From assembly GCA_000783305.1 (NCBI GenBank), contig JROE01000002.1, forward strand, positions 434,001 to 498,000: a stretch of DNA of 64,000 nucleotides, given 5' to 3'. A program made the position numbers and the translations under genes. The notes under the pieces were generated by a model that made no database searches, was not told the origin of the DNA, and saw only the letters and a program-made list of their open reading frames with translations. The first letter of the stretch is position 1; the number at the start of each line of letters is the position of its first letter. Positions 23,098-52,023 of the stretch are shown one piece after another. The stretch is from Sphingobacteriaceae bacterium DW12. Lineage in GTDB: Bacteria > Bacteroidota > Bacteroidia > Sphingobacteriales > Sphingobacteriaceae.

Positions 23098-23350
23098 ATT
23101 AAGTATTTGATTTATAGCAATTGGTTCCCTTCAGCCTAACTACCTCACCTCGGGTATATACCTAAGGAAATGAAGACGTTCATATTCTTAGTCATATAGC
23201 CGTCAATATATCGAAAAAAAACACATTGAGCAACCTGCCGTCACCTGCTACGAAAAAAACAGCCCTACTATTTCATAAAAGTAGCATACAGCCCAATAAC
23301 AAAGTTCTCCAATCTTTATCGTCCGAGAAATCCAATCCCATAGTAAATCA

Positions 23351-24376: not shown

Positions 24377-24410
24377 ATATGTATTGGACTTATAGAATAT
24401 TTTAAAATGT

Positions 24411-26561: not shown

Positions 26562-26575
26562 GTAGCTACACCCGT

Positions 26576-28054: not shown

Positions 28055-28095
28055 ATCAAAGTCTTTAATTTAAGTGAATCATACCAATCCACTCT

Positions 28096-30468: not shown

Positions 30469-30623
30469 AATATAGCAGCCAAAAATATATCGATATATGC
30501 CATGCACACATTTTGCTGTCTACAAAGCCTATAACAATCAGTAATTTATAAAAGGTATCACAACTTGCTAAGGTCGGCAGCTCTGGGGTATAGAAAACTG
30601 TCACCTCAACACTATTTCACACA

Positions 30624-36400: not shown

Positions 36401-39157
36401 GGATAAATCTCTCAATCCCGTTAGAAATTGAACCAATTCTGAAAAATCGATTTGAAAATCTGGAGGAAGATTCAACTGTAGACTTTCGTTCACCTCTTCT
36501 AAGTGCCCCTTCGCCGCCAAATAGGCTGTAATAGAGCTCGAAATATGGGCTTTATGAGAAAAAGCCTGATTTTTAAGATTAATCATACGCAGCGGATGCT
36601 CCGCAGGATCAGGTATTTTTCGACTCAAGCTCGCAAAAGCAACCGACCAATCTTTCCATTGATGCCATGTCGTTGTATCCAGCTTAGTTACATCCATCGG
36701 CATAATCCATTTTTGAGTCATAGCAACCTCGTGGCTATCCAAATAAGAAATCGATTCGTACAGCGTCCATCCAATAGGATAGGTTTGATGTAATGCATCA
36801 ATATACTTCCGGATCGCTGCCTTCCGCTCATCTATACGGGTTGCTTCTTCTTGGAAATCAACGCGGCTTTGATATTTCGGTAGGTCCAACGTCCGCGCCA
36901 ACTGGTTGATGACATCTGATTTTTTAGATTTATTGGAATGAATCTCCAAACAAAATGGTCCCAAGCCAATTTTTTCGAGACGCTTATGGACTACATCCAA
37001 GGCGGCTTTCTTAGCCGCAACAAACAATACCTTTTTATTATTGGCTAATGCATTGGCAATGATATTAGTGATGGTCTGGGATTTCCCAGTCCCCGGTGGA
37101 CCATGTAAAACGAATGTCTGATTAGCATGCGCATACTTAATTGCTGCTAGTTGTGAATAATCGGTAGCAATTGGCAAATTCAAATGAGACGAGGGAAGCT
37201 TTTCTAAATCCTCATGTGATTCCCGGATGTCAAATGCACGATTCAGCTTGCCTTCAATTAGGCTACTGACAATAACACTTCGCTGTATCTGTTCGGCATT
37301 TCTAGAAATATCTTGCCATAAAATGAGTTTATTGAATGAAAAGTTACCCAATACAACCTGCTCCAAAACATCCCAGCCGGCAAGGTTTAAAATAGCACGA
37401 CGTAATATCGCAAAGACCTTGTATACATCAATTCCAGAATCGTCCATTGGCAGCGTCTCAAGGCTATCTAAATTGAGCTGGTATTCTTGCTTAAGATACT
37501 CAAGTAACGTAATATTAAACATCGTTTCCTCCTCTCTACTCCGCAGATAATATTTGGCATTAACAGATTTCCGAGAGAGCTCTACCGGCACCAAGAGTAG
37601 AGGAGCGTAGCGTGCCTGTTCTTTACTTTTGGTATCATACCATTTTAAAAGGCCCAATCCCATATAGAGGGTACTTCTGCCATTCTCCTCTTCAGCAATC
37701 TTAGCGTTTCTAAATAAATGGGTAACAATATGGCCTAAATCTTCCTGGTGATAGTGGGTCAATAATCGATTATAACCAAATTCCTCCTCTGCCAATTTAT
37801 ACATAGGTTCCGAAGCGTGCAAAGGTGGAGCGTACAAATTGTAGCGCTTTAGGACAGGTTGATTGTTATTCGGTTGGATTGTAAAGGCTTTATTATTGGC
37901 TAGTGCATCTTCCAAACTGTTGACATTTACATCTAGGAGCTGCAGCATACTCTTGGTAAATCGAAGGTTTAGCAAATTGTTCCGTAAAGATAAATCGAGC
38001 AGTTTCCTTTCCCATACTTTCTGTTTGCTCAAATTACTATAATCGGTAAGCTCCAAGTTATCGTATTGCTGTCCAAGTGCATAATCGTGATTTATAGTCG
38101 CATCGTCGGCATACATATCCATCCCACTGGCACTGTCGAGAAAGGGAATGTCTTTTGTCAAAGACAGAGGTGTCACCCCCCATGCCCGCGCACTTTTGAT
38201 ATCTATAGACAACAGAAAGGCGTCCACATCCAAAATCTGCATTTCAGCTAGGTCCATGGCTTTTTTTAAGGGGAAGCTCGTCCCCTTGCAAAGCTGTGTA
38301 GATTCAATTAAGCAGATTTCGCGAATCCCAGACGCCATGCGTTTCGAAATCGCTGCTTGATCAAAGTTAATCATACTATCTAATCGCTGATTATCTAACC
38401 ACACTCCCACGAAAGCATGTCCTTTTGTGATGATAAGAATCGGATTAAGGTCAATAGCCTCCAAACAGGCGACAAAAAGCAAAGAGATATCAACGCAATT
38501 GCCAAATCTTGTTTTCAATACCTGATCAGCCAAACGAATACGCTGTCCCTCCGTCTCAAAACTTGCGGGCATCGCACTATATACGATATCGAGGTGTTGT
38601 ATGGCTTGGTATATAGCGTCTACCATTTGCAACACGCGGTCTTTGCTTCCAGACTGATATCCCTCAAAAGAAACCAACACGTTACTCTGCTCCAATATCC
38701 TGACTGCAGCAGTCTTGATTTGATAGACGGTATCATCATTGGGCATAGCATAGCTAAGCAATAACTCAGGATGCACCTGTAGGCCACCAAAATAATCAAT
38801 TGGGAAAATCGTGATTGAAAATGTCGTTTCATATAACACGGCATGCCCCGCAACTATAGACACGGAAATTGTATCGGTATCCTTTTCCTTCAAATCTCTC
38901 AAAAATGGCAGATTATACTTAAAAGGAAAACGATTAATTAAGTGACTATCTTCCTTCCTAATCAAATCCACTAAGCATGAGTACGCTTCGAAAATACCAA
39001 GAGAAGAAGAAATCTTGACATCAACATGGTGATAATCTACAGTATTACTTTTGATTACGATTTTTTCAAGGAATGGAAGACTATGGAGACAAAAGCTATA
39101 ATTGAAATAGAGATGATTTTGTATGATAACCTGCATTGAAGAATCTGACATGACCAT
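33422..39157 (-). CDS. Giant DUF4011 / SF1 helicase / Vsr-like nuclease / DUF3320 protein with transglutaminase-like domain (probable defence protein)
   Basis: This 1911-residue protein has, in order: a transglutaminase-like domain with candidate Cys221, His247 and Asp255 or Asp260 (RFGNCVDISLL, KGHAFVGVWLD); DUF4011 from about 378 (VWERKLLDLSLRNNLLNLRF); an SF1 helicase with Walker A GPPGTGKS (686-693), Walker B FDEASQLP (Asp/Glu about 1299-1300), GDPKQMPP, and the C-terminal motifs VQGDERDVILFSIGYG and LNVAVTRAR; a very-short-patch-repair-like endonuclease domain (GIIVDGKNYIHTQTTNDREL, Asp about 1635, then LGWNIFRIWTLDWL); and DUF3320 at the C-terminus. Fusions of this type (Hhe-related) have been proposed as single-gene anti-phage systems. 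It is monocistronic, and the flanking genes carry no other defence function that I recognise. Confidence 0.9.
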   Translation of the reverse strand: MVMSDSSMQVIIQNHLYFNYSFCLHSLPFLEKIVIKSNTVDYHHVDVKISSSLGIFEAYSCLVDLIRKEDSHLINRFPFKYNLPFLRDLKEKDTDTISVSIVAGHAVLYETTFSITIFPIDYFGGLQVHPELLLSYAMPNDDTVYQIKTAAVRILEQSNVLVSFEGYQSGSKDRVLQMVDAIYQAIQHLDIVYSAMPASFETEGQRIRLADQVLKTRFGNCVDISLLFVACLEAIDLNPILIITKGHAFVGVWLDNQRLDSMINFDQAAISKRMASGIREICLIESTQLCKGTSFPLKKAMDLAEMQILDVDAFLLSIDIKSARAWGVTPLSLTKDIPFLDSASGMDMYADDATINHDYALGQQYDNLELTDYSNLSKQKVWERKLLDLSLRNNLLNLRFTKSMLQLLDVNVNSLEDALANNKAFTIQPNNNQPVLKRYNLYAPPLHASEPMYKLAEEEFGYNRLLTHYHQEDLGHIVTHLFRNAKIAEEENGRSTLYMGLGLLKWYDTKSKEQARYAPLLLVPVELSRKSVNAKYYLRSREEETMFNITLLEYLKQEYQLNLDSLETLPMDDSGIDVYKVFAILRRAILNLAGWDVLEQVVLGNFSFNKLILWQDISRNAEQIQRSVIVSSLIEGKLNRAFDIRESHEDLEKLPSSHLNLPIATDYSQLAAIKYAHANQTFVLHGPPGTGKSQTITNIIANALANNKKVLFVAAKKAALDVVHKRLEKIGLGPFCLEIHSNKSKKSDVINQLARTLDLPKYQSRVDFQEEATRIDERKAAIRKYIDALHQTYPIGWTLYESISYLDSHEVAMTQKWIMPMDVTKLDTTTWHQWKDWSVAFASLSRKIPDPAEHPLRMINLKNQAFSHKAHISSSITAYLAAKGHLEEVNESLQLNLPPDFQIDFSELVQFLTGLRDLSLPMELITVLSSHAQRNVMALWMEQQSRKQQVEDRLLASYSRRILDADTTAVESLWNQAQHAWFLPRWLKKRKVKQYLNGFCTTGVGHDSQVWDLFQDLDNYRAILSDLQSVPFAEMERRTTSYRYTNGYNLAQLNADLAIYYELDECAQQLYFQKWTDWFKDLSVQKTWRNDVNVALDAIREFIKYFRILREFLTTIPEDKMLDTALHELEGLDDWIRYNHYKQKADEINLSWFIKLLEERVVDKNVLESELESVVHFNVFVTALEKEEVLNNFDADVYTSTLEQYKSLYHQFVGLTKDQLILQLSNSIPNLAQEAMQSSEIGILQRNIRNKGRGTSIRRLFDLIPTLLPRLKPCMLMSPISVAQYFDVTQDHFDLVIFDEASQLPTSEAVSALARARQAIIVGDPKQMPPTSFFVTAKLDEDHLELEDLESILDDTLALSIPSKYLLRHYRSKHESLISFSNHHFYESKLLTFPSADDLDKKVTLQWVSGHYDKGNSRTNKMEAETIVAYIKNHLEHKPDKSIGVVTFSQTQQSLIEDLLQNLFVDYPNLEEIANQEEEPIFIKNLENVQGDERDVILFSIGYGPDANGKVSMNFGPLNRDGGWRRLNVAVTRARYEMKVFSSLKADQIDLARTKAEGVKGLKNFLHFAEHGHLENTQMVEAHRVKYELVDAIADYLTQHGLTVKTAIGTSGYRVDIGVVDPRNPNRYILGIIVDGKNYIHTQTTNDRELLIPDVLQSLGWNIFRIWTLDWLKNKAYVVTQIDRRIQQLVERPHVEELNREAIMQAPIDAKIANSIMPVSAEVHQVIRQVPYKDAGLSPVSDASSESIYQEENRGVIRTQLATFIRTESPISQPNLFRKVLRLWNTQRAGAKLVAYLNEIVTDLSDVTTRYSYQLFYYDGIGLSDEIDYYRDNSIEKRNIEDIAPEEIEVAVMEFLQQNLSISKDELIRAMGKVFGFNKVGIQIESVISFTLNRLIDDGKVKFLDGRILLA

Positions 39158-39504: not shown

Positions 39505-39546
39505 GACCAATACAGTAGGTATTGTAGAATACCTACTGTATTGGTC
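39505..39546 (-). terminator. Perfect 19-bp stem hairpin at the end of the LacI-regulated operon
   Basis: Arms 39505-39523 and 39528-39546 (outer bases GACCAATACAGT, mirrored ACTGTATTGGTC) are perfectly complementary around a 4-nt loop. It starts 8 bp after the stop codon of the DapA-family gene. The minus-strand flank AAAATCTG has no U run, so it may act by stabilising the mRNA 3' end instead of classical termination. Confidence 0.6.
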
Positions 39547-39553
39547 CTTATAT

Positions 39554-40624
39554 TTAACTTTGCAATTCGTATCGTTCTAAAAACTCCCTAACAAAATCAT
39601 CATCATGGAGCAAAGGATAATCGTTGTGTATACGAGTCAGCTCCCCTGACTGTCCGTCAGAAAGTACTTCATGCGGATTTAAGCACCAAACACCCTTCAT
39701 CAGACCTTGTCTGACCAAAACCTCGTGTATTCCTGGTATACAGCCTTCAAAATCATTTGCAACATCAAACAAAGCTGCATTAGCATCTGTTGTTTGGCTA
39801 CCCACGATCTGAAGATGTCGCCATTTTTCAGGGGTGGGTTGTATCTTAAATTCTTTGACCAGTTGCAAGAGTTCGACCGCCTTGGACGTCCAAACTGCCC
39901 AGTGCCCCAATAGCCCCCCCCTGAACTGTACCTCCTTTGCAGATCCATTGACCTCGAATCTATAAATAGACAATAAATCGGCAACAATGTTGTCATCATT
40001 ACCTGTATATAGTGCTATTTGCTCTCCTCTCGGAGAATTAGCTATTGCCCTTACCACATCCAGGGTTTGGTAGCGATTAAAAGAGGCGCACTTGATAGCC
40101 TCCACATTTTCGATGTTGACGAATTTCGTCCAAAAATCATAGGAGAATATACGCCCACCCACCGAAGGTTGTAGATAGAAGCCGAATACGGGAATAATCT
40201 GTGCGACGGCTTCTGTGCGTCTTAAAATTTCGCTTTCTGTCAACTCTTGTAGCCCCCCCATACTCAACAGTCCCATGTCATATCCATATGCAATGGCCAA
40301 TTTGGCTTCAGCAATCGCTTGCTCTGTTGACCCAACTATACCTGCTATCCTAATAAAAGGCCTTGTCAGTTTAGCTTTGTCTATCTCTTCTGCTGAAATC
40401 TTTAATAATCTTTCAAACAGATTGTATTGAGGTAGCCTTATTTCAAACTGTGTCGAATGAACTCCCACAGCCACTCCACCCGCACCACTTTCAATATAAT
40501 AATTAGTCAACAGACGTTGTCCGTTTTCATCCAATAATCTATCCTCATTCAGACAGAGCGGGTGGGCAGGAAACACCGTACCTGCAAATAAAAGTTCCCG
40601 TTTCTGAGTTTCTAATCTTTTCAT
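39554..40624 (-). CDS. Dihydrodipicolinate synthase (DapA/NanA)-family aldolase
   Basis: This 356-residue TIM-barrel protein belongs to the class of Schiff-base aldolases that cleave or form 2-keto-acid products. The Schiff-base lysine is probably Lys178 (NVEAIKCASFN), and Tyr150 (FGFYLQPSVGG) takes the place of the catalytic DapA tyrosine. It is longer than typical DapA (about 290) with an extended C-terminus, so it is unlikely to make lysine precursors and more likely handles a sugar-derived keto acid. Its ATG overlaps the stop codon of the SDR gene by one base (TAATG), indicating translational coupling. It is the last gene of the operon. Confidence 0.88.
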   Translation of the reverse strand: MKRLETQKRELLFAGTVFPAHPLCLNEDRLLDENGQRLLTNYYIESGAGGVAVGVHSTQFEIRLPQYNLFERLLKISAEEIDKAKLTRPFIRIAGIVGSTEQAIAEAKLAIAYGYDMGLLSMGGLQELTESEILRRTEAVAQIIPVFGFYLQPSVGGRIFSYDFWTKFVNIENVEAIKCASFNRYQTLDVVRAIANSPRGEQIALYTGNDDNIVADLLSIYRFEVNGSAKEVQFRGGLLGHWAVWTSKAVELLQLVKEFKIQPTPEKWRHLQIVGSQTTDANAALFDVANDFEGCIPGIHEVLVRQGLMKGVWCLNPHEVLSDGQSGELTRIHNDYPLLHDDDFVREFLERYELQS

Positions 40625-41646
40625 TAAAATTGTCCCCTTCTTTCCTGAAAGTGCGTATCTTTCCCAAATTCATCTCCTTTATGGAGTATCCATTGCGCAG
40701 TAATCTCAATAATTGACAAAATCGTAACATTCGGATATCCAAACAATCGATGACACTCCGCCGCATTGTTCAACAAGGCAGTAGCCTCCGGCTCGTTTTC
40801 AAATTGCGGTTCTTTTCCCAGGACCTCACCTAGCTTTTCGGCAATCCACCTGATAGATAACACTTCTGGGCCTGTTACATTCAACACTTTGGCGGGGCTT
40901 TCACAATGCAATAACGAGCGAATCGCTATTTCATTGGCATCATGTTGCCAAATAACGTTGACATTATTTGTACGCAGATCAATAGGTTGCTGGTGGTAGA
41001 CTTTTTTAGCTATTTCGCGAATGATACCATATCGAAAGTCTACCGCATAATTTAATCGGTAAATCAACACAGGCGTTGCATTTTGTTTACTGAAATAGGA
41101 AAACATCCGCTCTCGTCCCAATGTACTCTGAGCATACTCTCCAATTGGCTCAGGAGTCCCCCCCTCATCGACACCACCGGATGTAACTGGTACAAAAGGC
41201 AATACGTTACCCGAAGAGAATGCCACAATCCGAGAGTCCTTAAATGCCTCTGCGACCCGCCCTGGCAAATATGTATTCATCGCCCAAGTGAAGTCTTCTT
41301 TACCAGTAGCTCCAAATTTGAATCCTACCAAAAAAATCACATTTTTGACCTTAGGTAGACTTCTTAAGGCCTCATCATCCAACAAATCACACGCAATAGT
41401 TTCTACTCCCCATCTATGTAAGTCCTCCCTACATTGGTTATCCGAAAAGCGAGAGACACCGATGACCTTGCTCGTGCTACCGATTTGCCGAAGTCCATCT
41501 TTCAGGAGTTTGGCCATGCTCGGCCCCATTTTTCCACCAACTCCCAACAACATAAAATCTCCATCTATCTCCGCTAAATCTGCTAAAAGCGATACAGATG
41601 GCTTTGTATATTGTTCTTCTAAATTCTTTAAAATCTGATTTTCCAT
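40624..41646 (-). CDS. Extended-SDR NAD(P)-dependent epimerase/dehydratase-like protein
   Basis: The 340-residue protein has an N-terminal Rossmann motif LGVGGKMG (34-41), the strand end VAFSSGNVLPF (141-151, with Ser144/145) and the C-terminal substrate domain VLNVTGPEVLSIRWIAEKLG. The usual catalytic YxxxK is YAQST (Tyr171, Thr175), so the lysine is replaced by threonine. It may have lost classical oxidoreductase activity or use another base. It lies between the Nramp-like transporter (1 bp upstream) and the DapA-family aldolase (1-base overlap), so the three are co-expressed. A sugar epimerase/dehydratase or lactone-related role is possible but unproven. Confidence 0.85.
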   Translation of the reverse strand: MENQILKNLEEQYTKPSVSLLADLAEIDGDFMLLGVGGKMGPSMAKLLKDGLRQIGSTSKVIGVSRFSDNQCREDLHRWGVETIACDLLDDEALRSLPKVKNVIFLVGFKFGATGKEDFTWAMNTYLPGRVAEAFKDSRIVAFSSGNVLPFVPVTSGGVDEGGTPEPIGEYAQSTLGRERMFSYFSKQNATPVLIYRLNYAVDFRYGIIREIAKKVYHQQPIDLRTNNVNVIWQHDANEIAIRSLLHCESPAKVLNVTGPEVLSIRWIAEKLGEVLGKEPQFENEPEATALLNNAAECHRLFGYPNVTILSIIEITAQWILHKGDEFGKDTHFQERRGQF

Positions 41647-41647
41647 A

Positions 41648-42850
41648 TTATTTCAAAAACATGTCGTATACATTACTAAGCATCAAAATAAAAATAACTA
41701 CCAGTCCCATCAGGCCTGCAGTTTTATAAAAAGTATTGTTAGCGTGCTCACCCATTATTTTCTTGTTATTAGCGATCACCAATATTGAAATACCGATAAA
41801 GGGCACTAAAAATATAGTTACACTCTGTGCTAAGACAATCAGCTCCAAGGGTAGCTTACCAAACGATATCGAAACTATACACCCCAATATCATGACCACT
41901 GAAATCAAGATTTTCACCCGTTTAGAACTTAAGCTGCTGCCGTAACCAAGCGCATCACCCAACAACGCGCCCCCCACCGTTGCGTTTCCTACCAGTGAAG
42001 AAAAGGATGCACCAAACAGACCAATAAAAAAAAGGGAGCTTGCATAGGTGCCAAATAATGGTTCCAAAGCCGTCCCCATTTCTGCGGCACTTCCTACGTG
42101 TATTCCCTTAGGAAATAATACTGCCGCAGCACACACCAACACCGAAGCGCTCATGAATCCCAAAATACCCACACCTATAAAAGCGCCTCTTGCAGAGGAA
42201 GGTACTGTGACGGATCCGGCACCTACTTTCTTGCGTTCCTGTATAAGATAGGTCTGATAAAAAGCACCAACTAGCGAGAAACAAGAGGCCGTAAATGCAA
42301 TTATCAATCCTAGCGAGTGATCGGGAATGGAGGGGACGAATCCAGATAGCAGGGACCCAAATTGTATATCAGCTAAAAATAAGGTAGCCACAAAACAGAA
42401 CAGCATTAGCAACACCAACCCTATCATCAGTTTTTCCATCACCTTATAGAAGGACGGTAGAAATAGGAGTATAATAGCGATAGCCGTAAAAGTCAATATC
42501 CATATCTCCTTAGGAGTACCCGTGGCCTCACCTATCGCTATACCGACGCCAATGCTATTACCAGCTTGAAATGAGGTTGCTACCAAAAATATACCAATAC
42601 CGATAGCAACCCCTATTCTCTTGTCAAAGTATTCTTTTATAAGTGTTAACAAAGACTTCTCTTGTATGGTACCTATTCGCGAGCACATAGCGGTATATAC
42701 GCCCATAAAAAATAAGGCTACGATTACAATCCACATTAGATTGTACTCATAGTCAGCTCCCATCTTGGATGTAATCGTCATTTTACTCGGACCAAAAACC
42801 AAGGCAGCAGTGATTATCCCTGGTCCTAATATGTTCAACAGTTTTCTCAT
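41648..42850 (-). CDS. Nramp-superfamily transporter lacking the metal-binding motifs
   Basis: This 400-residue membrane protein has about 11 helices in the LeuT-like Nramp arrangement, beginning LLNILGPGIITAALVFGPSK. Canonical metal-transporting Nramps have DPGN in TM1 and MPH in TM6. Here the TM1 motif reads GPSK (about residues 20-23), and TM6 (SCFSLVGAFYQTYLIQERKK) has no MPH. Transition metals are therefore doubtful substrates. The gene sits in a sugar-oxidation/aldolase operon, 9 bp after the PQQ-dehydrogenase gene, so import of an organic acid or other product is a reasonable inference. A Mg-type relative is an alternative. Confidence 0.85.
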   Translation of the reverse strand: MRKLLNILGPGIITAALVFGPSKMTITSKMGADYEYNLMWIVIVALFFMGVYTAMCSRIGTIQEKSLLTLIKEYFDKRIGVAIGIGIFLVATSFQAGNSIGVGIAIGEATGTPKEIWILTFTAIAIILLFLPSFYKVMEKLMIGLVLLMLFCFVATLFLADIQFGSLLSGFVPSIPDHSLGLIIAFTASCFSLVGAFYQTYLIQERKKVGAGSVTVPSSARGAFIGVGILGFMSASVLVCAAAVLFPKGIHVGSAAEMGTALEPLFGTYASSLFFIGLFGASFSSLVGNATVGGALLGDALGYGSSLSSKRVKILISVVMILGCIVSISFGKLPLELIVLAQSVTIFLVPFIGISILVIANNKKIMGEHANNTFYKTAGLMGLVVIFILMLSNVYDMFLK

Positions 42851-42859
42851 TTTACAATC

Positions 42860-44386
42860 TTATTTATGCGTTCTCATTCTAATATCTTTCACCATAGCAC
42901 TGTCTATTGAGCCCAAGTTATTTCCGAAATGCGTTCTAATATAAGTTGCTATCGTGGCAACATCAGCATCGGACAGAAAGCCAAATGCTGGCATTTCTTC
43001 ATCATATTCCTCTCCATTGATTACAATTTTCCCCTTTAGTCCCTTCAATAAGACCGTTACCAATTTGTCGGCATCTGTTATGGTAGGCGTCTGAGTCAGC
43101 GGCGGAAAGAAATTTCTCACCCCTTTACCATCATTTTTATGACACGAAGCACAGTATGACTGATATAGCACCTTTCCATCACTTGTCTTTCTATTTTCTG
43201 GTTCATAAGCCATCAAGAATTCCTTCGGTACAAAATCGATTACAGCCAATTTTAAGATACGATCATCTCCTTTTTGCGGAAATCCATTTTGCGGATTCCA
43301 ATCGCGATTGCTAGTTGCGATATAGATATTCCCTCTATCATCTATTGTCACAGCTCGAATCCGTCCATAGTGATTCTTAAAATATAATTTTTCATCGGCA
43401 ATTACCTGCTGCTCAGCATCTAATTTTAAAACTCGAAAACTTTGGCTTTTCAGTGTTGTCAGCAGCAGACTATTGCTCCATTCTGGGATGGCCTGAGAAC
43501 CATAATAGGTAAGAGCGGCGGGAGCGATCACTGGAGTCCAGGCTTTGATGGGCTCTGTTCGCGAACTGTGCCGAGCGATTTCCTTCTCTGCATCCGTATC
43601 GTGAAATCCTTCGATTTCCTTCCATCCGTAATTATGCAAAGGCTTGACTAGATTAATCTCGTCCTCTATCGCATCCCCATGTTCAGAAGTCATCAGATGT
43701 CCCTTGGAGGTCATCGCCATCCCCTGTATATTACGAAAACCCCAAGCATAGACGTACGAATTCGAGATAGGATTATCGGACGGGATAAGCCCTTCATCCG
43801 TCATTCGAAGTACTTTTCCGTTTAAATTTGTTGAATCTTGTGAATTGGTATTGGAGTGCGCATCACCAGTAGCCCAATATAGTAATCCCTCTTTATCGAA
43901 GAGTAATCTGGACCCATTGTGCCCCAATGCGCCACCAATCTTCAACAACACCTTTGATTCGACAATTTCCCCTTCTACATACCTCAATTGAGCAAGTTCA
44001 CTAAAATATTGTTCACCATCTTTGATGGTATAGCAGACATATAGATACGGTTTTTTATCAAAATCAGGATGCAGGGCTAACCCCAATAGGCCCATCGATC
44101 GCTTTTGAAAAACATGAGGAACAGTATAAATAATCGTTCGTTTATTCGTGGCTAAGTTCAATTCTGAAATCTGCCCCTTTATCTCCGTAAAGAATATAGA
44201 TTTGGTCGTCGGATTAAACTGCAAATCCCAGGGCACCTCCAAGCTGTCGGTCAATTGTGAGATGCCCAAATACGTCGTATCAGAAACCTTCAAAAAATCG
44301 ATATATTCCTCGCGAGGTGTATGCTGACAGGCAGAGACCATGAGCACAAGACAGGAGACCAAAGCGCAATATAATTGCTTCTTCAT
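42860..44386 (-). CDS. PQQ-type sugar (sorbosone/glucose) dehydrogenase fused to cytochrome c
   Basis: This 508-residue periplasmic lipoprotein has a signal ending in LVSCLVLMVSACQHTP. The main part is the six-bladed soluble glucose dehydrogenase fold: DSLEVPWDLQFNPTTKSIFF, MGLLGLALHPDF, LYWATGDAHSN, SYVYAWGFRNIQGMA and SEHGDAIEDEINLVKPLHNY. The C-terminal 100 residues are a cytochrome c with CASCH (about 412-416) and a candidate Met ligand in EEMPAFGFLSDADVATIA. The enzyme would oxidise a sugar or sugar alcohol and pass electrons to the respiratory chain. The ATG at 44386 is chosen over upstream in-frame starts because it begins the lipoprotein signal. Confidence 0.9.
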   Translation of the reverse strand: MKKQLYCALVSCLVLMVSACQHTPREEYIDFLKVSDTTYLGISQLTDSLEVPWDLQFNPTTKSIFFTEIKGQISELNLATNKRTIIYTVPHVFQKRSMGLLGLALHPDFDKKPYLYVCYTIKDGEQYFSELAQLRYVEGEIVESKVLLKIGGALGHNGSRLLFDKEGLLYWATGDAHSNTNSQDSTNLNGKVLRMTDEGLIPSDNPISNSYVYAWGFRNIQGMAMTSKGHLMTSEHGDAIEDEINLVKPLHNYGWKEIEGFHDTDAEKEIARHSSRTEPIKAWTPVIAPAALTYYGSQAIPEWSNSLLLTTLKSQSFRVLKLDAEQQVIADEKLYFKNHYGRIRAVTIDDRGNIYIATSNRDWNPQNGFPQKGDDRILKLAVIDFVPKEFLMAYEPENRKTSDGKVLYQSYCASCHKNDGKGVRNFFPPLTQTPTITDADKLVTVLLKGLKGKIVINGEEYDEEMPAFGFLSDADVATIATYIRTHFGNNLGSIDSAMVKDIRMRTHK

Positions 44387-44589
44387 TTTTTTGTTTTCAT
44401 AATCTTTATAAAAACCATTAATAACAGTTAGGTATGTATCCCCAAAGGTCTTTCCCATTTTCAAAATAGATTTTATCATATGTACCCAATACCATTAGGT
44501 TACTTCTTTAATTTGCGAGATTCTGTCGGTTTTAATATAGGAATTAGATAACATATTAGTCAAGCCGAAGAATACCATTCCATTTCAAA

Positions 44590-46317
44590 CTACCATCCAG
44601 GATTTTGAGTGAGATTTCCTTCATTCAATCTAATCTCACTTTCTGGAATGGAATTTAGGTAATCTCGATTTAACTTAAATCCATATCCTGCAGGAACTGC
44701 TTTTTGAAAGGGATCTAGAAACCCATCGCTATCCACAGGGAAAGGATTCTGCTTAACTTGACTTGCAAGGAAACCTTTAGGCCGTTTGCCTACTATCAAC
44801 TCATCCGCCGCTGCCCAACGCGCGATATCATCCCATCGAAATCCCTCACCTACCAATTCGACCCTACGCTCTCTCCTGATTTCATTTATTGCTGACGATA
44901 GCAATGGAAAATCCCATTTGCTATCTGTAGTGATATTCGATAAATCCAAATTTGGCATTCCCACCCTATTTCTCAAAAGATTAATAGTTCGATTTACATC
45001 TTCTTGTTTGAGTCCCCCTAATTCAGCTTTAGCCTCTACATTGTTCAACAGGACTTCTGCATACCGAAATAAGATTGATGGCGTTTCTTCATACTGTTGC
45101 ACATGATAGATAACCTGTGGATCATATCCCTTTTGAATGACATAACCCGTAGGTGCATTCAGGTCAGTCTTTGAGTTTAAGGTATTGTAGATCTCTGACC
45201 ATAATTGGGTAGCACCATTTGCTCCTATTTTCCATACCTGGTCTGGAGTTGCCACAGTCTGTTTCAGTCTTGAATCGCGATTCTCAAATTCTTGGTTGAT
45301 ATTCGTATATCCTTTGAATAAGGCATTGCCCGAGATAGGTTTCCCATCCGTACAAAGATAACTGTCAGCTAAACCCTTAGATAGTGACCTCCCTAGCGGT
45401 TGAGACATTCTAAAATTCCGATCATTCGTAAAATCATTGTCTCCGCGCGAAAGCTCATTATCATATCTTCTCCAAAAAAGCACCTCCACATTTTCCGAGT
45501 AGTCACGCTTGGTAAATAGATCCCGATAATCAATTTGGCCATTCCCAGTAGTGTACACGCCATACAAACCTGATTTCATAATTTCTTCACTAGCGTCTAC
45601 AGCCTTTTGAAAGTACTTATTAGGATTGGCATTGGAGACTTTAAATTCATCGTCACTGTGATATTTCTGCCACGAGCCCTCATACAACGCAATTCGGCTC
45701 TGCATCAACAATGCGATCCAACGATTGATACGACTATAGCCATTCGTGCGGTCGGCAGTGAGATACATCGCAGCTGTATCCAGACACCCTAGTATACGAT
45801 CGGCAACGACGTTTCGTGGTGTACGGCCATTGTACAATTCCGGTGAGCTTGTTCCTAAATCTTTATCCAACCACTGGATATCACCATACGATTTCAATAA
45901 ATTAAAGTAGGTCACGGCCTTAAAATAATAGGCCTCACCAACATACTGCTTATAAGTATTGAAATCATGCTTCCCTTCTATCTTTTTGTAATTTGATAAA
46001 AAATAGTTCAAGCTTCTCACTTTTGTAAAATCGATTGTTCCACTGGTAACCACTGTACGCGTACCTTGCAAACGAAGATCTACGGTAGAGGCCACCATAT
46101 CATCACTATTATAATCATTGCCGTGATTCTGGTATTTTGGAAAATATGCATTGCTATAAAATTGATTCATATAAATCTCCAAATCCAATGGTTTTTCAAA
46201 ATACATATCAGATATCACCTCATCAAGTGGCTGTCTGTCCAAAAAATCATCATTACAAGACACTATTATCGTCGCCGATGCTACCAATAGAGCAGCCGTT
46301 TTTATAAAATTTTTCAT
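44590..46317 (-). CDS. SusD/RagB-family outer-membrane lipoprotein (locus 3)
   Basis: The 575-residue lipoprotein has a signal ending in IVSCNDDFLDRQPLDE, and SusD features YVGEAYYFKAVTYFNLLKSYG, LFRYAEVLLNNVEAKAELG and the motif RRERRVELVGEGFRWDDIAR. It is 8 bp downstream of SusC. It probably captures the soluble substrate that the downstream PQQ-type dehydrogenase oxidises. There is no glycoside hydrolase in this locus, so a small sugar or sugar conjugate is more plausible than a polysaccharide. Confidence 0.95.
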   Translation of the reverse strand: MKNFIKTAALLVASATIIVSCNDDFLDRQPLDEVISDMYFEKPLDLEIYMNQFYSNAYFPKYQNHGNDYNSDDMVASTVDLRLQGTRTVVTSGTIDFTKVRSLNYFLSNYKKIEGKHDFNTYKQYVGEAYYFKAVTYFNLLKSYGDIQWLDKDLGTSSPELYNGRTPRNVVADRILGCLDTAAMYLTADRTNGYSRINRWIALLMQSRIALYEGSWQKYHSDDEFKVSNANPNKYFQKAVDASEEIMKSGLYGVYTTGNGQIDYRDLFTKRDYSENVEVLFWRRYDNELSRGDNDFTNDRNFRMSQPLGRSLSKGLADSYLCTDGKPISGNALFKGYTNINQEFENRDSRLKQTVATPDQVWKIGANGATQLWSEIYNTLNSKTDLNAPTGYVIQKGYDPQVIYHVQQYEETPSILFRYAEVLLNNVEAKAELGGLKQEDVNRTINLLRNRVGMPNLDLSNITTDSKWDFPLLSSAINEIRRERRVELVGEGFRWDDIARWAAADELIVGKRPKGFLASQVKQNPFPVDSDGFLDPFQKAVPAGYGFKLNRDYLNSIPESEIRLNEGNLTQNPGW

Positions 46318-46325
46318 AATCTTGT

Positions 46326-49300
46326 TTATTTCAATGTTAGATTAAGACCAAAGGATATAATTTTATTCATCGGATATATGACACCACTTGTCAAATACCC
46401 CCCCTCTCTACTATCCGAAGCAATAGCCGTCTCAGGGTCAAATACCTTAGGTAAACTAGAGAAAGTCAAGAGGTTTTCGCCTGAGAAATACACACGTGCC
46501 TTACTGAATACCTTACCACCGACACTTTGCGGAAAAGTGTAACCTACCTGTACGTTTTTTAAACGGATATAAGAGGCATTTAGGAGGTAACGTGTTTGGG
46601 TAAGCTTATTTTTTTCGGTCTCCGCTGTAAAATAGGGTTTAGGAAGGTATGCGTCTATATTTGGTCCCAAAATGTTGGTCTCGTCAGCAGGCCTCCAATA
46701 ATCGAGTCCTGGCGAGTTTTTGTACAATCCAGAATTGGCCCAAGCATTAGTCAACCCCCAGAACAAAGGAGTAGAAGACTCTGGAGCAAAATCCCGTTTT
46801 CCAACCCCCTGCCAAAACATATTGAAATCAACACCTTTCCAACTTGCACCAGCCGTAACTCCAATATTATATCTTGGAAGTGAATTACCGATTACTTTCA
46901 AATCGCCAGGATCACTCAAGGTCCTGGCGCCATCGTTGATAATACCATCTCCATTTAAATCGGTATACTTGATATCACCTGGTCCCCAATTGCTATGGTA
47001 TTTAGATTGATCGGCCATTTTCTCTCCTGCTACCTGCATAATCCCTGCAGTTTCAAATCCCCATATCTCCCCATACTGCTTACCTTCGTACCACGTGTCA
47101 ATCCTTCCTGTTTCATTCAAATACTCCAAGATTGTAGTTTTACTATCCCCTAAGGACACTTTTAAATTGTAACTAATACCATTTGAGAACCTATCATTCC
47201 ACGATGCGACCAATTCAAATCCCTTGGTAGATAGCTTAGCATTGTTGGTCACAGGGGTGGCAGCACCTAATACATAAGGCAACTCTATCGCTTTACCAAA
47301 CATATTGCTTGTAGTACGGTTGTACCAATCAAATGTAATTCCCAGCCTAGAATCCAATAGCTGTACATCAGTACCCAAATTGAGGGTTGTAACCGTTTCC
47401 CACGTTATTTTATCACTGATTAAGATAGGCACCTGCCCATATTGAGGGCGTGATTCGTTGATAATCCAATCCAACTCGGGTCTTATCGGAATCCTCGAAT
47501 AATATAAATCATTGCCTACATTCTGATTCCCTAAAGATCCATAGGAAGCCCTGATTTTCAAATTATTTACCTGGTCTTTTATCGGTTCCCAAAAGTCTTC
47601 TTTAGAAACAACATACCCTATCGATGCAGAAGGAAAAAAACCGAATCTATTTTCTTTTGGAAACCTTGACGAACCATTGTAACGAGCCGCCAGTTCTACT
47701 AGATATTTTTCTTGATAATTGTAATTGACCCGACCGAAACCGCCGCGAGTAGCCCAATGGCTCATATTATCAGAAGCGACAATCCCGCCCAACGAAGTTA
47801 CGATAGAGGGATTGTCATCCACTACGGGCGAGGTCCCAGTAGCATTCAATCCAGTATATAGGTTTTCTTCTTGTTCATACCCCAAGAGAACTTTGAAATA
47901 ATGATTGTCCCATTGAGATTCATACGATGTAATAGCATTCAACACCTTATATACATACTCGTAATATCCTGCTGTATAGGAAGATTGAGGTTTCCCGATG
48001 TTACCAAATGCGCCTGTCCCCAGCTCTACCATCACAGGCTTCGGATTTTGACTGGTTTTGGTATTCTTGATGTTGTAACTATAAGTAAGTGCTGTTTTCC
48101 ATCCTTTGATTGGCTCTACTTCTGCACTTAAGTTGGCAAGAAAATCAGCATTCTTCTTCTTATCTCGACCAGAATCCTCTAAAAGTCGGACCAAAGGGCT
48201 TTGAACAATACCGTTAATATTATAATGAGGCATCATAGGTGCAAACATTAGCATCTCCCTAAAAGTATGTTCCCGCCCTACTGTAGTTTCTCCCATAGGA
48301 AAGTCTGTGGATGTAGACGCCCATTTCAGACTTGACCCCAATCTCAACCAATCTGTGATTTGGGTAGATACATTGGACATTAGGTTATAGCGTTTGAAAT
48401 AGTCATGCCCAAAAGCGTATGTTCCATTTTGCTTAGTATATCCAGATGAAAGAAAGTACTGCGTCCGCTCGCCTCCACCTGTGACATTTACATTATGTTT
48501 TTGGCTGAAGGCATTTTTTCCCATTAAAATGTGTGGCCAATCGTTATTAGCGTTCCCATTTCTTCTTCCTGCCCAAATGTTGTCTATTGGATGCTCTGGA
48601 TCATATTCATATGGAAAAGTACCATCTAAGTATCCTTTGATGCGCTCCATCTGCTCGTCGCTATATATGGCAGTAAGGCCGGCATTTGCATTGGCTTGGT
48701 TATACGCAGTCGCCCAAGTATATGAATCGATAAAACTAGGCAACCGAAGTGGTGACGACAAGGACAGATTATTACTATAGTCCAACTTTGTCCCTTCGAG
48801 CTTGGAACCCTTCTTGGTCGTGATCAAAATAACACCAAATGGTGCGCGTGACCCATAAACTGCTGCTGCTGAAGCATCTTTCAGCACAGAAATACTTTCT
48901 ACTGTTTCAGGGTCAATTCCAGCTAGATCCATCTCTACTCCATCAACCAGTATCAAGGGACTACTATTCCCATTAATAGATCCTACCCCCCGTATATTCC
49001 AACCGCTTGCAGCTCCTGGCTCTCCCCCCCGCATCCCCATCTCGATATTCACGTTAGGTGATGCACCTTTTATCAAATCCGCCACATTATTTGCGGGCCT
49101 ATCTTTCAGGCGATCGCCAGAGATGACATCAATGGAAGCTGTCAAGTTGCCTTTCTTTTGAGTTCCATAGCCAACGACCACCACCTCTTCTAAATCTCGT
49201 GAAGCATCGTTTAACACCACCTGAATTTCCCGCTTTCCATTAAGTGCTGCCAAATAGGTCGAAAAACCTACAGAACTAAATTGCAGCGTATCTGTCAGTG

Positions 49301-49502
49301 CACTGACGTCAATCCTAAAAGCTCCTTTTGAATCGGTCTGTGTTTTCGTATCATTCCCCCTCACTCCAACACTAACACCCGCCAAAGGAATACCATTTGT
49401 GGTCTTTACTGTTCCATTAACAGTATTTTTTTGCTGCGCATGGATCGCAACCCCATAAAATATGAGGACGACGAGTACCATTATCGGTCGAATTGGTATC
49501 AT
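46326..49502 (-). CDS. SusC/RagA-family TonB-dependent transporter without STN domain (locus 3)
   Basis: The 1058-residue importer has a signal peptide (1-22, IMVLVVLIFYGVAIHAQQ), a carboxypeptidase-like domain directly after it (27-100, VNGTVKTTNGIPLAGVSVGV), then a plug (about 110-220, DLEEVVVVGYGTQKKG, SVLKDASAAAVYGSRAPFGV) and the barrel. There is no STN domain, which fits the absence of a FecR/sigma pair and control by a LacI regulator instead. It heads the six-gene operon and is preceded by 562 bp containing two LacI-type palindromes. Confidence 0.95.
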   Translation of the reverse strand: MIPIRPIMVLVVLIFYGVAIHAQQKNTVNGTVKTTNGIPLAGVSVGVRGNDTKTQTDSKGAFRIDVSALTDTLQFSSVGFSTYLAALNGKREIQVVLNDASRDLEEVVVVGYGTQKKGNLTASIDVISGDRLKDRPANNVADLIKGASPNVNIEMGMRGGEPGAASGWNIRGVGSINGNSSPLILVDGVEMDLAGIDPETVESISVLKDASAAAVYGSRAPFGVILITTKKGSKLEGTKLDYSNNLSLSSPLRLPSFIDSYTWATAYNQANANAGLTAIYSDEQMERIKGYLDGTFPYEYDPEHPIDNIWAGRRNGNANNDWPHILMGKNAFSQKHNVNVTGGGERTQYFLSSGYTKQNGTYAFGHDYFKRYNLMSNVSTQITDWLRLGSSLKWASTSTDFPMGETTVGREHTFREMLMFAPMMPHYNINGIVQSPLVRLLEDSGRDKKKNADFLANLSAEVEPIKGWKTALTYSYNIKNTKTSQNPKPVMVELGTGAFGNIGKPQSSYTAGYYEYVYKVLNAITSYESQWDNHYFKVLLGYEQEENLYTGLNATGTSPVVDDNPSIVTSLGGIVASDNMSHWATRGGFGRVNYNYQEKYLVELAARYNGSSRFPKENRFGFFPSASIGYVVSKEDFWEPIKDQVNNLKIRASYGSLGNQNVGNDLYYSRIPIRPELDWIINESRPQYGQVPILISDKITWETVTTLNLGTDVQLLDSRLGITFDWYNRTTSNMFGKAIELPYVLGAATPVTNNAKLSTKGFELVASWNDRFSNGISYNLKVSLGDSKTTILEYLNETGRIDTWYEGKQYGEIWGFETAGIMQVAGEKMADQSKYHSNWGPGDIKYTDLNGDGIINDGARTLSDPGDLKVIGNSLPRYNIGVTAGASWKGVDFNMFWQGVGKRDFAPESSTPLFWGLTNAWANSGLYKNSPGLDYWRPADETNILGPNIDAYLPKPYFTAETEKNKLTQTRYLLNASYIRLKNVQVGYTFPQSVGGKVFSKARVYFSGENLLTFSSLPKVFDPETAIASDSREGGYLTSGVIYPMNKIISFGLNLTLK

Positions 49503-49741
49503 AATATATGATTTAATTAAATATTTGGTTGTCAGTTTATAATATTTTCTCTTCTTAAAATAAAATGTACATATTGCGTCCAGCTATTCTTCGTCATGCA
49601 CCTACCTCGAACTGTCCATAGTTTGGGGCATTTCACATCAAGCAATATTTCAATTAAGCAACATCCGTCTTCCAGTGTGTTATCTATGAATGTCCTCAAC
49701 CCCTATTCTTCAGACAATCAGATTTTTATACTTAATCAATA

Positions 49742-49763
49742 TTTACGTTAACGTTACCGTAAA
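49742..49763. promoter_or_regulatory. LacI-type operator 1
   Basis: A 22-bp palindrome (two symmetric mismatched positions) centred on AACGTT contains the core CGTTAACGTTACCG at 49746-49759. The central CG step is what LacI-family hinge helices intercalate. It lies 240 bp upstream of SusC. Confidence 0.7.
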
Positions 49764-49854
49764 TAGATAAGCCACATCTGGATTACCGATACATCTATAC
49801 GAATTCAACATATTTCATATCCCCTTTCAATTGCCAATTAAAAGAAACCTAGAG

Positions 49855-49875
49855 AAATCGTTAACGTTACCGAAA
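49855..49875. promoter_or_regulatory. LacI-type operator 2
   Basis: The same 14-bp core CGTTAACGTTACCG recurs at 49859-49872, with palindromic flanks AAAT/GAAA. Centre-to-centre distance from operator 1 is 113 bp, close to an integral number of helical turns (10.8), which would allow DNA looping. Confidence 0.7.
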
Positions 49876-50064
49876 TGGTATTAAAAAAAAGAACCATCAC
49901 GATTCAACTTTCCAAAATGCAAGAATTTATATTTTAAAATCAAATAACTGTGTTTGTCTCATCATCTACGTTTTTCAAAAAAAAAGCACTCGACAATCGC
50001 TAGGGTTCGGTCTATAACATTTGCAAGATAAAGATTAGATATATACAATGCAAAATTATTTTTT

Positions 50065-51132
50065 TTAATTTTCATAAAAAAGATAATTTTCAATTGTCAA
50101 GATATCTATTGGCATAGGTTTGAATTCCACCATCTCCTCTTTTAGTAAAAAGTATTTGTATAAATAATTCAATGCCAGATATCCTTGTTTATCCGGCCGC
50201 TGACATATCAAAAAATCAATTACCCCCTTTGCTAGATATTCCACATTTGCACCCAAAAAATCAAAACCGATTATATGCGGCTTGGTCAATTCTGTATTTT
50301 CATGAAAGAATTGCCCCACCAACGATACCCTCGAGTTGGTAATAAAAATCAAGTCAGGTTTGATATCCGTGTGATAACGGAGAAGTTTAGGTGCGATTTC
50401 ATCATAGTCATTATAAGGAATATCTTTTATCGTTATATCGTAGGCCCTATCCAGTGATTGCAAATAATTACGATAGCCCTCTATCTTGGTATTTAGATAG
50501 GTGTAGTTTTTTACTCCTTTTGCGATGTTCAGAATTAAGAGTCGAGCTTTGTTTTGAACCAAATATGAGGTCAAATTTCCAGCTAAACGTCCTGTACTAT
50601 TCAAATCCGGACCGATGTATCCCAGTGAGGAATGACCTGGTATATCCGAATTAATAAAAATCGTCTCAATACGCTGTTGCTTACATAGGCTAACAAATTC
50701 TATTGTCTCCTTAATAAATATGGGCGCAATCACCACGGCATTAAATTTTTTTTGCAGCACCTTGGCCGATAATTTCAAAAAAGTAGCCGCATCTTCTTGG
50801 TCATATAAAAAAACTTCGCTGTTAATTCCAAAAGTTGCAAATTCCTTAACACCTTTATCGATTCCCTTTAAACAGAGCTCCCAATATCCAGTCTGTAAAG
50901 AAGTCCTAGGTATCAAAATTGCAAAACTGAGATTATTTTTGACCGACAAAGAGCGAGCATACAAATTAGGTTGATAATTATGCTCTTTGATTATCTCCTT
51001 TATCTTTTCTCTCGTCTTATCCGATACATCCTTACGATTGTTCAGTACGCGATCTACGGTCGCAATAGAGACATTGGCAAGTTTAGCAATTTCCTTGATA
51101 CCAAATCGCTGGTTCTCATTCTGTTCACTCAT
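50065..51132 (-). CDS. LacI-family transcriptional regulator of the locus 3 operon
   Basis: The 355-residue regulator has an N-terminal helix-turn-helix (IKEIAKLANVSIATVDRVLN, about 12-31) and hinge helix (YQPNLYARSLS), followed by a periplasmic-binding-protein-like sensor (SFAILIPRTSLQTGYWELCL, AVVIAPIFIKETIEFV, LIFITNSRVSLVGQFF). It lies immediately upstream of the operon on the same strand. The two AACGTT-centred palindromes in between are its probable operators. The ligand is presumably a sugar taken up or produced by the pathway; the C-terminal domain does not tell which. Confidence 0.93.
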   Translation of the reverse strand: MSEQNENQRFGIKEIAKLANVSIATVDRVLNNRKDVSDKTREKIKEIIKEHNYQPNLYARSLSVKNNLSFAILIPRTSLQTGYWELCLKGIDKGVKEFATFGINSEVFLYDQEDAATFLKLSAKVLQKKFNAVVIAPIFIKETIEFVSLCKQQRIETIFINSDIPGHSSLGYIGPDLNSTGRLAGNLTSYLVQNKARLLILNIAKGVKNYTYLNTKIEGYRNYLQSLDRAYDITIKDIPYNDYDEIAPKLLRYHTDIKPDLIFITNSRVSLVGQFFHENTELTKPHIIGFDFLGANVEYLAKGVIDFLICQRPDKQGYLALNYLYKYFLLKEEMVEFKPMPIDILTIENYLFYEN

Positions 51133-51234: not shown

Positions 51235-52023
51235 TTAATCGGACCTGTTATTAATATTTTCAAAGTACCGCATGACTTGCAGCTCCGTTTCCACTTGCAA
51301 TATAATTGTATGATCGAAAAGAACCAATCGCAGGTCGCGATACAGTCGAACAGCATTTTGAAGGCCCTGCAGTAAGGCGCTTCTATCATACTGTGCTATT
51401 GTGAGCTTTAAATCTCCCAAATCCTGACTCTCCAATTCCATTTCAACTTTTCTCACCCCTCTTGGTAGGCTGTTGTTCTTTACATGAAGCAGAGGCCCTA
51501 GTGTACTCATTCTCAGAAATCCCATAAAATCCAATGCTTCGAAATACTCCCCACGACCAATCTTAAGCAGGGCGTAATGTACCCAAATCCAAAAACGATC
51601 TTCTATCCATTGATAGTTTGGATATGGAAAGACCGATTCGGATTTAAGCAAAGCTGATTGAAGCTGTTGGTTTCTGTCAAAAAGTATGACCGGCGTTTCA
51701 ACTCGATTGTAGCATTCATCTAATGTGACAAATTTGATATCTACATGCAGAAGAGGACGATCATACAGACATATCAATAGTCTAGGCTCGCCCACATGCT
51801 CCCCGGTAAACCCCGACAAGAACCTTCCCAATCGCCGAGCATAGGCTATCATCTCTTCTGGGTTATCCGTAATCTTTTCCCGTGTGACGATGATTAAATC
51901 CAAATCTGAAAATTCGTCCATCTGCCCAGACAACCATGACCCACCTACAGCGAGTCCGATGATCTGCTCGTCTTTCTCCAGAATATGTTTTGCGTTATTT
52001 GCAAATTCAGTCTGTATCGTCAT
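51235..52023 (-). CDS. Nucleotidyltransferase-domain protein (aminoglycoside adenylyltransferase-like)
   Basis: The 262-residue protein starts with an antibiotic-NT-type nucleotidyltransferase domain: GLAVGGSWLSGQMDEFSDLD places Gly27/Gly28/Ser29 and the metal-binding Asp40 and Asp42. The rest is helical. The pattern resembles streptomycin or lincosamide adenylyltransferases, but resistance cannot be claimed: most chromosomal members have no demonstrated antibiotic target, and many are annotated only as nucleotidyltransferases. It is 102 bp upstream of the lacI-family gene, separately transcribed. Confidence 0.85.
   Translation of the reverse strand: MTIQTEFANNAKHILEKDEQIIGLAVGGSWLSGQMDEFSDLDLIIVTREKITDNPEEMIAYARRLGRFLSGFTGEHVGEPRLLICLYDRPLLHVDIKFVTLDECYNRVETPVILFDRNQQLQSALLKSESVFPYPNYQWIEDRFWIWVHYALLKIGRGEYFEALDFMGFLRMSTLGPLLHVKNNSLPRGVRKVEMELESQDLGDLKLTIAQYDRSALLQGLQNAVRLYRDLRLVLFDHTIILQVETELQVMRYFENINNRSD

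Follow-up and report, generated by a model that had tools for sequence, protein, structure and literature searches.

What is the purpose of an operon that combines SusCD uptake with a sugar dehydrogenase and has no glycan-degrading enzyme among its genes? The question is raised by a locus of Sphingobacteriaceae bacterium DW12, at positions 39554-51132 of a 64,000-nucleotide stretch (contig JROE01000002.1, positions 434,001 to 498,000), hereafter the window. Seven genes, all on the minus strand, encode a LacI-family regulator, SusC, SusD, a pyrroloquinoline quinone (PQQ)-type dehydrogenase, an Nramp-fold carrier, a short-chain dehydrogenase/reductase (SDR) and a DapA-like protein. Open reading frames (ORFs) of the window and profile searches returned exactly the gene order, and likewise the families and spacings, that a preliminary description made from the sequence alone had given. 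Our analysis favours reading this as a sugar-utilisation operon of known type, built round a widespread SDR-DapA pair that bears only generic names. We put it at an even chance that the operon serves sugar-acid catabolism, with aldol cleavage to pyruvate as its last step.

Results

SDR and DapA-like genes are conserved neighbours

The last two genes of the operon, which overlap by one base, encode a protein of predicted extended SDR fold (40624-41646, minus strand) and a protein of the DapA/NanA superfamily (39554-40624, minus strand). The Nramp-like gene lies 1 bp upstream of the SDR gene and 9 bp downstream of the dehydrogenase gene. Among named genomes, at least 578 related loci were found, the best 80 of which (45 from Bacteroidota and 35 from Bacillota, as assigned by record title) were analysed; their genes were counted by tblastn, and ORF calling (SDR 73, DapA 78) missed genes lying under longer antisense ORFs. 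In all 80 loci, SDR and DapA lie next to each other on the same strand, within 300 bp in 79 and 412 bp apart in one. The Nramp-like gene is present in 42 loci and sits directly upstream of SDR in 41 of these. The preliminary description had hinged on the last three genes staying together in relatives; both the pair and the triad are conserved as neighbours, so the dispersal that would have spoken against it is not what is found. Distances between family members correlate (r 0.81 for SDR-DapA, 0.83 for SDR-Nramp and 0.80 for DapA-Nramp), at a level that none of 999 label shuffles reached and that is expected of genes travelling together or of mere shared species history.

At closer range, the 36 genomes of the genus include 18 with SDR, the window's among them, and 23 genomes from elsewhere in the class lack it, while a sample of 296 genomes spread over the phylum, again with that of the window, contains it in five. 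Around 22 SDR matches, viewed with flanks of 1.5 kb on each side, DapA adjoins in every case, 20 loci hold the Nramp-like gene and 17 show the dehydrogenase gene's end. In the most distant locus, L024 (loci are cited by L numbers, genomes by G numbers), DapA lies on the other side of SDR. The PQQ-type gene was found in 24 of the 80 loci, all from Bacteroidota, and in none of the 35 Bacillota loci. Neither SusCD nor PQQ is thus a fixed companion of the SDR-DapA pair.

The pair also resides on plasmids. SDR matches 25 plasmid records and, among the 20 listed, 17 have a DapA match. Flanks were viewed in eight pair-bearing records and in the haloarchaeal Halomontanus. The two genes are adjacent in Streptomyces, Rhodococcus, Aquisphaera, Paenibacillus and Mesobacillus, and parted by one GNAT or TetR gene in Tistrella, Sulfitobacter and Nitratireductor; the plasmid hosts include members of Actinomycetota, Alphaproteobacteria and Planctomycetota. 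Product names in the annotated records are NAD-dependent epimerase/dehydratase or NAD(P)-dependent oxidoreductase for the one gene and dihydrodipicolinate synthase family for the other, with hypothetical protein in one case. Two alphaproteobacteria have a GNAT-family gene between SDR and DapA (L105:9944-12986, L106:9932-12918), and in a planctomycete such a gene precedes both (L110:7108-10321). On one haloarchaeal plasmid (L108:9959-11005), SDR adjoins a DegT aminotransferase gene, with no DapA annotated, and two more haloarchaeal records hold SDR without a DapA match.

Residues and predicted folds of the operon proteins

Residues were counted in the window and in loci L025-L113, admitting stop-free matches over 80% or more of the query; the count thus excludes L003-L024. 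In the SDR family, Tyr171 is present in 90 of 90 proteins and Lys at position 175 in none, its place being taken by Cys (74), Thr (13), Val (2) or Ser (1); Ser144, Lys39 and Lys110 are invariant, and one of these two lysines might stand in for the missing one. The lack of the YxxxK lysine, first noticed in the window's protein, holds in all the relatives counted. At E 0.001 Pfam does not recognise the protein; at E 0.1, Epimerase is matched by 38 of 49 members of the family. Its structural model (pLDDT 90) is closest to TerB (Z 31.2, root-mean-square deviation 2.5 over 291 residues) and shares the same extended SDR fold with UDP-sugar 4-epimerases (Z 28.4). By contrast, TerB and GalE-1 retain YxxxK in the alignments shown, at the position where this SDR has Cys or Thr. 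A literature search on the TerB of the Protein Data Bank (PDB) match found nothing.

Like sialate lyase and dihydrodipicolinate synthase, the other members of the DapA/NanA superfamily considered here, the DapA-like protein has the barrel fold, the Schiff-base Lys and the catalytic Tyr; the roles of these residues in NanA and dihydrodipicolinate synthase are general knowledge, as are those of the residues of glucose/sorbosone dehydrogenases (GSDH). Lys178 (89 of 89 proteins) and Tyr150 (88 of 89) align with the catalytic Lys-Tyr pair in sialate lyase. The window's protein scores 19.7 bits against PF00701 (DHDPS), below the cut-off of 22.1, and 44 of 48 family members match DHDPS at E 0.1. The model (pLDDT 94) matches dihydrodipicolinate synthase (VIA Z 33.5, root-mean-square deviation 2.3 over 295 residues). 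The protein differs from the superfamily in its length, being about 50 residues longer, in its identity of only 13-21% in the structural matches listed, and in having VHSTQF in place of the GSTGE-type motif. Together with the predicted fold, the conservation of Lys178 and Tyr150 makes it likely that the DapA-like protein uses a Schiff-base mechanism on a 2-keto acid.

The Nramp-fold protein (41648-42850, minus strand) matches PF01566 with 229 bits (cut-off 29.8). The metal motifs of Nramp proteins are DPGN (helix 1) and MPH (helix 6). The genome's other Nramp has both, and both are absent from all 43 Nramp-like proteins of the present family, which carry GPSK (34) or GPGS (9) in place of DPGN and VGAFYQ-like residues in place of MPH. 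The loss of the metal motifs reported for the window's protein is thus borne out in its relatives. An Nramp-family protein encoded in a catabolic operon is not without parallel: PxpT is required for growth on 5-oxoproline, an organic acid, according to the cited part of PMC13274462. YcsG, a relative of PxpT, differs in that it is also reported as a manganese importer whose over-expression raises cell manganese (PMC10448178, part cited). The likeness to both is at the level of the family.

The dehydrogenase gene (42860-44479, minus strand) encodes a GSDH domain (PF07995, 250 bits, cut-off 25) with a C-terminal cytochrome c (CASCH; PF13442, 44 bits), and its PDB matches are glucose/sorbosone dehydrogenases. 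Its sequence suggests that translation probably starts at codon 32 (44386), with a lipoprotein signal ending in VSAC; the gap to susD would then be about 203 bp and not 110 bp.

A predicted palindromic operator precedes susC and, in two relatives, pyruvate carboxylase

The lacI gene (50065-51132, minus strand; LacI helix-turn-helix PF00356 and Peripla_BP_4) is separated by 562 bp from susC (46326-49502, minus strand; TonB-dependent outer-membrane transporter, TIGR04056 807 bits). This gap contains CGGTAACGTTAACG twice, 113 bp apart, at 49859-49872 and, as retrieved by motif search, 49746-49759 (both minus strand). The motif is a 14-bp palindrome with a central CG and is elsewhere absent from the 5.3-Mb genome, even at one mismatch. 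With up to two mismatches, where chance would give 0.16 matches, the window holds five: each of the two sites read on either strand, and one further match elsewhere.

The operator search covered the window's genome and, of the 17 others in the genus that carry SDR, the five with an SDR identity of at least 75%. These six genomes contain nine exact sites, seven before this operon and two before pyruvate carboxylase. The latter occur in two genomes, inside a palindrome of at least 22 bp and 69 bp 5' of the start codon; the genes concerned are L140:1-2941 and L142:17334-20000 (Pfam was run on the L140 copy only). LacI relatives of 67-73% identity precede the operon in L025, L026 and L043; G029 has no lacI directly before it and a LacI of 71% identity about 30 kb away. 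Control by LacI, proposed from gene order in the preliminary description, is thus supported by a predicted operator, CGGTAACGTTAACG, that is present in two copies before susC and kept in relatives. In G029, sites with one mismatch lie before a SusC gene and before a run that contains MR_MLE; G018 likewise has one before an MR_MLE-containing run, and G013 one before a GMC oxidoreductase gene. At L140:8962-15078, a one-mismatch operator is followed by genes for a TonB receptor, MR_MLE, cupredoxin and GSDH-like proteins.

Placement of the operator bears on the extent of the transcription unit. The susC gene adjoins susD (44590-46317, minus strand; lipoprotein, PF07980 167 bits) at 8 bp. Where SusCD head the operon (window, G013, G014), the operator is at susC and none lies, within one mismatch, before the dehydrogenase gene; in G013 it falls inside the longest-frame call of susC, whose true start is probably further downstream. 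In operons without SusCD at their head (L026, L043, G009, G018, G029), it is found directly before the dehydrogenase gene. A terminator scan listed no terminator-like site in the gap between susD and the dehydrogenase gene, and a 19-pair hairpin directly 3' of the dapA stop (39505-39546) is the probable transcript end. A sigma-70-like match (10/12) at 44563-44534, within the same gap, weighs against a single unit; the scan that gave it returned 26 promoter-like sites in all, fewer than the mean of 36 in shuffled sequences. Because the operator sits either at susC or, where SusCD are not at the head, at the dehydrogenase gene, a single transcription unit of SusCD and the downstream genes is favoured.

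Neighbourhoods of the pair

Within 10 kb of the pair in the 80 loci, phmmer detected M20 amidohydrolase (18), MR_MLE (9), serine dehydratase (6) and GMC oxidoreductase (3) genes, after exclusion of matches at 21-30 bits (L059_14, L055_15, L059_06, L092_01, L035_00, L036_00, L051_00). The neighbourhoods also hold Gfo/Idh oxidoreductases, ABC sugar transporters and LacI regulators, and glycan-degrading enzymes, which profile searches (Pfam/NCBIfam) did not detect among the window's operon genes, occur in the clusters of some relatives. Strong MR_MLE matches (E <1e-150) are present in 7 of 18 SDR-bearing genomes of the genus and in 0 of 18 SDR-lacking ones (P 0.008; a weak match in G011, E 1.5e-4, was excluded). 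Serine dehydratase, M20, GNAT and CN-hydrolase neighbours hint at an amide-bearing substrate. In a Paenibacillus (L050:12117-13681), iron-sulfur serine dehydratase subunits come directly after DapA and are followed by an M20 amidohydrolase, an arrangement that hints at an amide-bearing or amino sugar acid.

Other genes of the window

The gene immediately upstream of lacI (51235-52023), in the same orientation, encodes a nucleotidyltransferase with weak likeness to lincosamide nucleotidyltransferases (28.5 bits, cut-off 525). On the minus strand, 33422-39157 encodes a helicase-like protein of 1911 residues that matches the PADLOC candidate defence model PDC-S37 (1122.6 bits) and Hhe (506.9 bits). 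A further minus-strand cluster (21814-30507) encodes proteins named by reading as Gfo/Idh-like, propeller-like, DUF1501-like and a membrane protein with a cytochrome-like motif, together with a large cytochrome-domain protein that we take to be of a type known from Planctomycetes; a protein with a similar start is encoded near the SDR-DapA pair in L099.

Discussion

A pathway can be proposed in which LacI would repress the operon at the two identical operators before susC. SusCD would carry a small sugar or sugar acid across the outer membrane, and in the periplasm the lipoprotein GSDH-cytochrome c would oxidise it, giving a lactone or acid and feeding electrons into the respiratory chain. Import of the acid into the cytoplasm might fall to the Nramp-fold carrier, which has lost its metal sites. 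There the Lys-less SDR would turn the acid, by what is probably a redox reaction at a keto or hydroxy group, into a 2-keto-3-deoxy-type acid. The DapA-like enzyme would then form a Schiff base with this acid and release pyruvate and an aldehyde. Pyruvate fits as product because pyruvate carboxylase carries the same operator in two relatives. The reading is also favoured by enzymes of sugar-acid type near the pair in relatives (MR_MLE, GMC and Gfo/Idh oxidoreductases), by the ABC sugar transporters found there, and by the strong MR_MLE matches confined, within the genus, to SDR-bearing genomes. Of the uptake, oxidation, import and cleavage read in the preliminary description, it is the last step, specified here as aldol cleavage to pyruvate, that gains from the catalytic residues and the pyruvate carboxylase operator; all substrates and reaction directions of the pathway, as well as the role of the Nramp-fold protein, are what we infer. 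That SDR and the distinct DapA-like aldolase, with the Nramp-fold protein as acid carrier, form a widespread and previously undescribed non-phosphorylative sugar-acid pathway to pyruvate is a tentative suggestion, to which we give somewhat less than an even chance.

Several observations weigh against this interpretation. Partners of the pair differ widely (GNAT, M20 amidohydrolase, serine dehydratase), a variety that one simple pathway leaves unexplained. DapA has no match in three of the 20 SDR-bearing plasmid records listed, each of them haloarchaeal, and the most distant DapA homologue, L024 (about 34% identity, outside the residue count), has Glu for Tyr150. One-mismatch operators are no commoner than a reversed control pattern in four of the six genomes (real/reversed: G000 2/24, G018 16/8, G014 4/9, G013 7/10, G009 6/12, G029 6/2), and only exact sites therefore count. 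If the Nramp-fold protein imports the acid, loci without it might use another transporter, but a substitute is not clearly evident: one was present in 21 of 38 Nramp-lacking loci, against an extra one in 15 of 42 Nramp-bearing loci (P = 0.12). PqqE passed the cut-off in none of the 18 operon-bearing genomes, with weak matches in 16 of them but also in all 14 control genomes. The cofactor would thus come from outside, or the enzyme would not be PQQ-dependent; since no PqqE passes, the TonB receptor of L140 could serve PQQ uptake. All 18 operon-bearing genomes have a gene of the KDPG-aldolase family at another place, which speaks neither for nor against a bypass of the classical route. Finally, a genome search found no MR_MLE of the relatives' type, PL6 or heparinase II/III genes in the window's genome.

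This last result touches the substrate. Uronates are the leading class, with a chance that we nevertheless consider well short of even. In a specific form of the sugar-acid reading, they would be freed by polysaccharide lyases. The unsaturated uronate, or 4-deoxy-5-keto uronate as its open form, would either be reduced by the SDR to 2-keto-3-deoxygluconate (KDG) or, by earlier periplasmic oxidation at C1, yield a 4-deoxy-5-keto aldarate; in both cases the DapA-like enzyme would cleave the product without a phosphorylation step. This chemistry draws on general knowledge of uronate pathways, and we consider the route possible but doubtful. G029 speaks for a uronate route: the operon and five PL6 (chondroitinase B family) genes share one stretch of about 30 kb, where pyruvate carboxylase carries the exact operator. 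PL6 is also commoner in SDR-bearing genomes of the genus (12 of 18) than in SDR-lacking ones (4 of 18, P = 0.018; genome size may confound). Within 10 kb of the pair, PL6 or heparinase-II/III-like genes are found in 8 of the 80 loci (1 PL6, 3 PL12-like and 4 with weak DUF4962-type likeness only) and BNR_4 genes in 4 more. However, no lyase query matched in the other 68 loci (counts without a random-window control), PL6 does not lie close to the operon in most PL6-bearing genomes, and the window's genome has neither PL6 nor heparinase II/III.

Two other explanations appear improbable, to a similar degree. In one, of the 3-keto-glycoside type, Gfo/Idh or GMC oxidoreductases and GSDH would oxidise a ring hydroxyl, and SDR and DapA would act on the keto acid so formed. 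Recurrent neighbours of the pair do include Gfo/Idh, TIM-barrel isomerase, DUF1080 and GMC genes, but the window's operon contains no such gene, each cluster occurs in at most 13 operon-like runs of the 80 loci, and neighbours vary between phyla. In the other, the pair would be non-catabolic, detoxifying or building a metabolite, with SusCD and the dehydrogenase as chance additions in Bacteroidota. The pair beside a GNAT gene and an ABC transporter in two alphaproteobacteria, and the haloarchaeal SDR next to a DegT aminotransferase with no DapA annotated nearby, would agree with this; sugar and acid transporters, LacI regulators and the link to pyruvate carboxylase point instead to carbon use. 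Least probable is that the Nramp-fold protein imports a metal ion for other enzymes, such as calcium for the dehydrogenase, and no organic product: its PF01566 score and the manganese phenotype of YcsG (PMC10448178, part cited) are in agreement with metal import, but both metal motifs are missing in 43 of 43 proteins and retained in the genome's other Nramp, and PxpT serves growth on 5-oxoproline (PMC13274462, part cited).

The wider interest lies in the SDR-DapA pair, which is linked in five phyla and has only generic names in the records examined. The operator and its link to pyruvate carboxylase provide a concrete handle for naming the reaction of the pair, and the SDR may function without the usual lysine. 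The operon is also a clean test case for an Nramp fold carrying an organic acid, a point on which the cited parts of the PxpT and YcsG papers differ. No title on this gene set was found in the open-access literature searched, subscription journals lying mostly outside the search.

Two known systems come close to the operon. The oxidative chitin (Ong) pathway of Pseudoalteromonas, as presented in the cited part of PMC9537276, likewise takes an oxidised sugar across the outer membrane and a sugar acid across the inner one, with break-up in the cytoplasm and a local repressor. It employs the D-aminoacylase-like OngB, the pyridoxal phosphate enzyme OngC and the SSS carrier OngIT, and KDG is phosphorylated; the OngB, OngC, OngIT and KDG kinase families, as given in that part of the source, are absent from the operon, and the Ong pathway is therefore ruled out. 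The SusCD loci of Bacteroidota also unite a SusC/SusD pair, a local regulator and a periplasmic enzyme. By contrast, the window's operon contains, instead of a glycoside hydrolase or lyase, a sugar dehydrogenase and the SDR-DapA pair.

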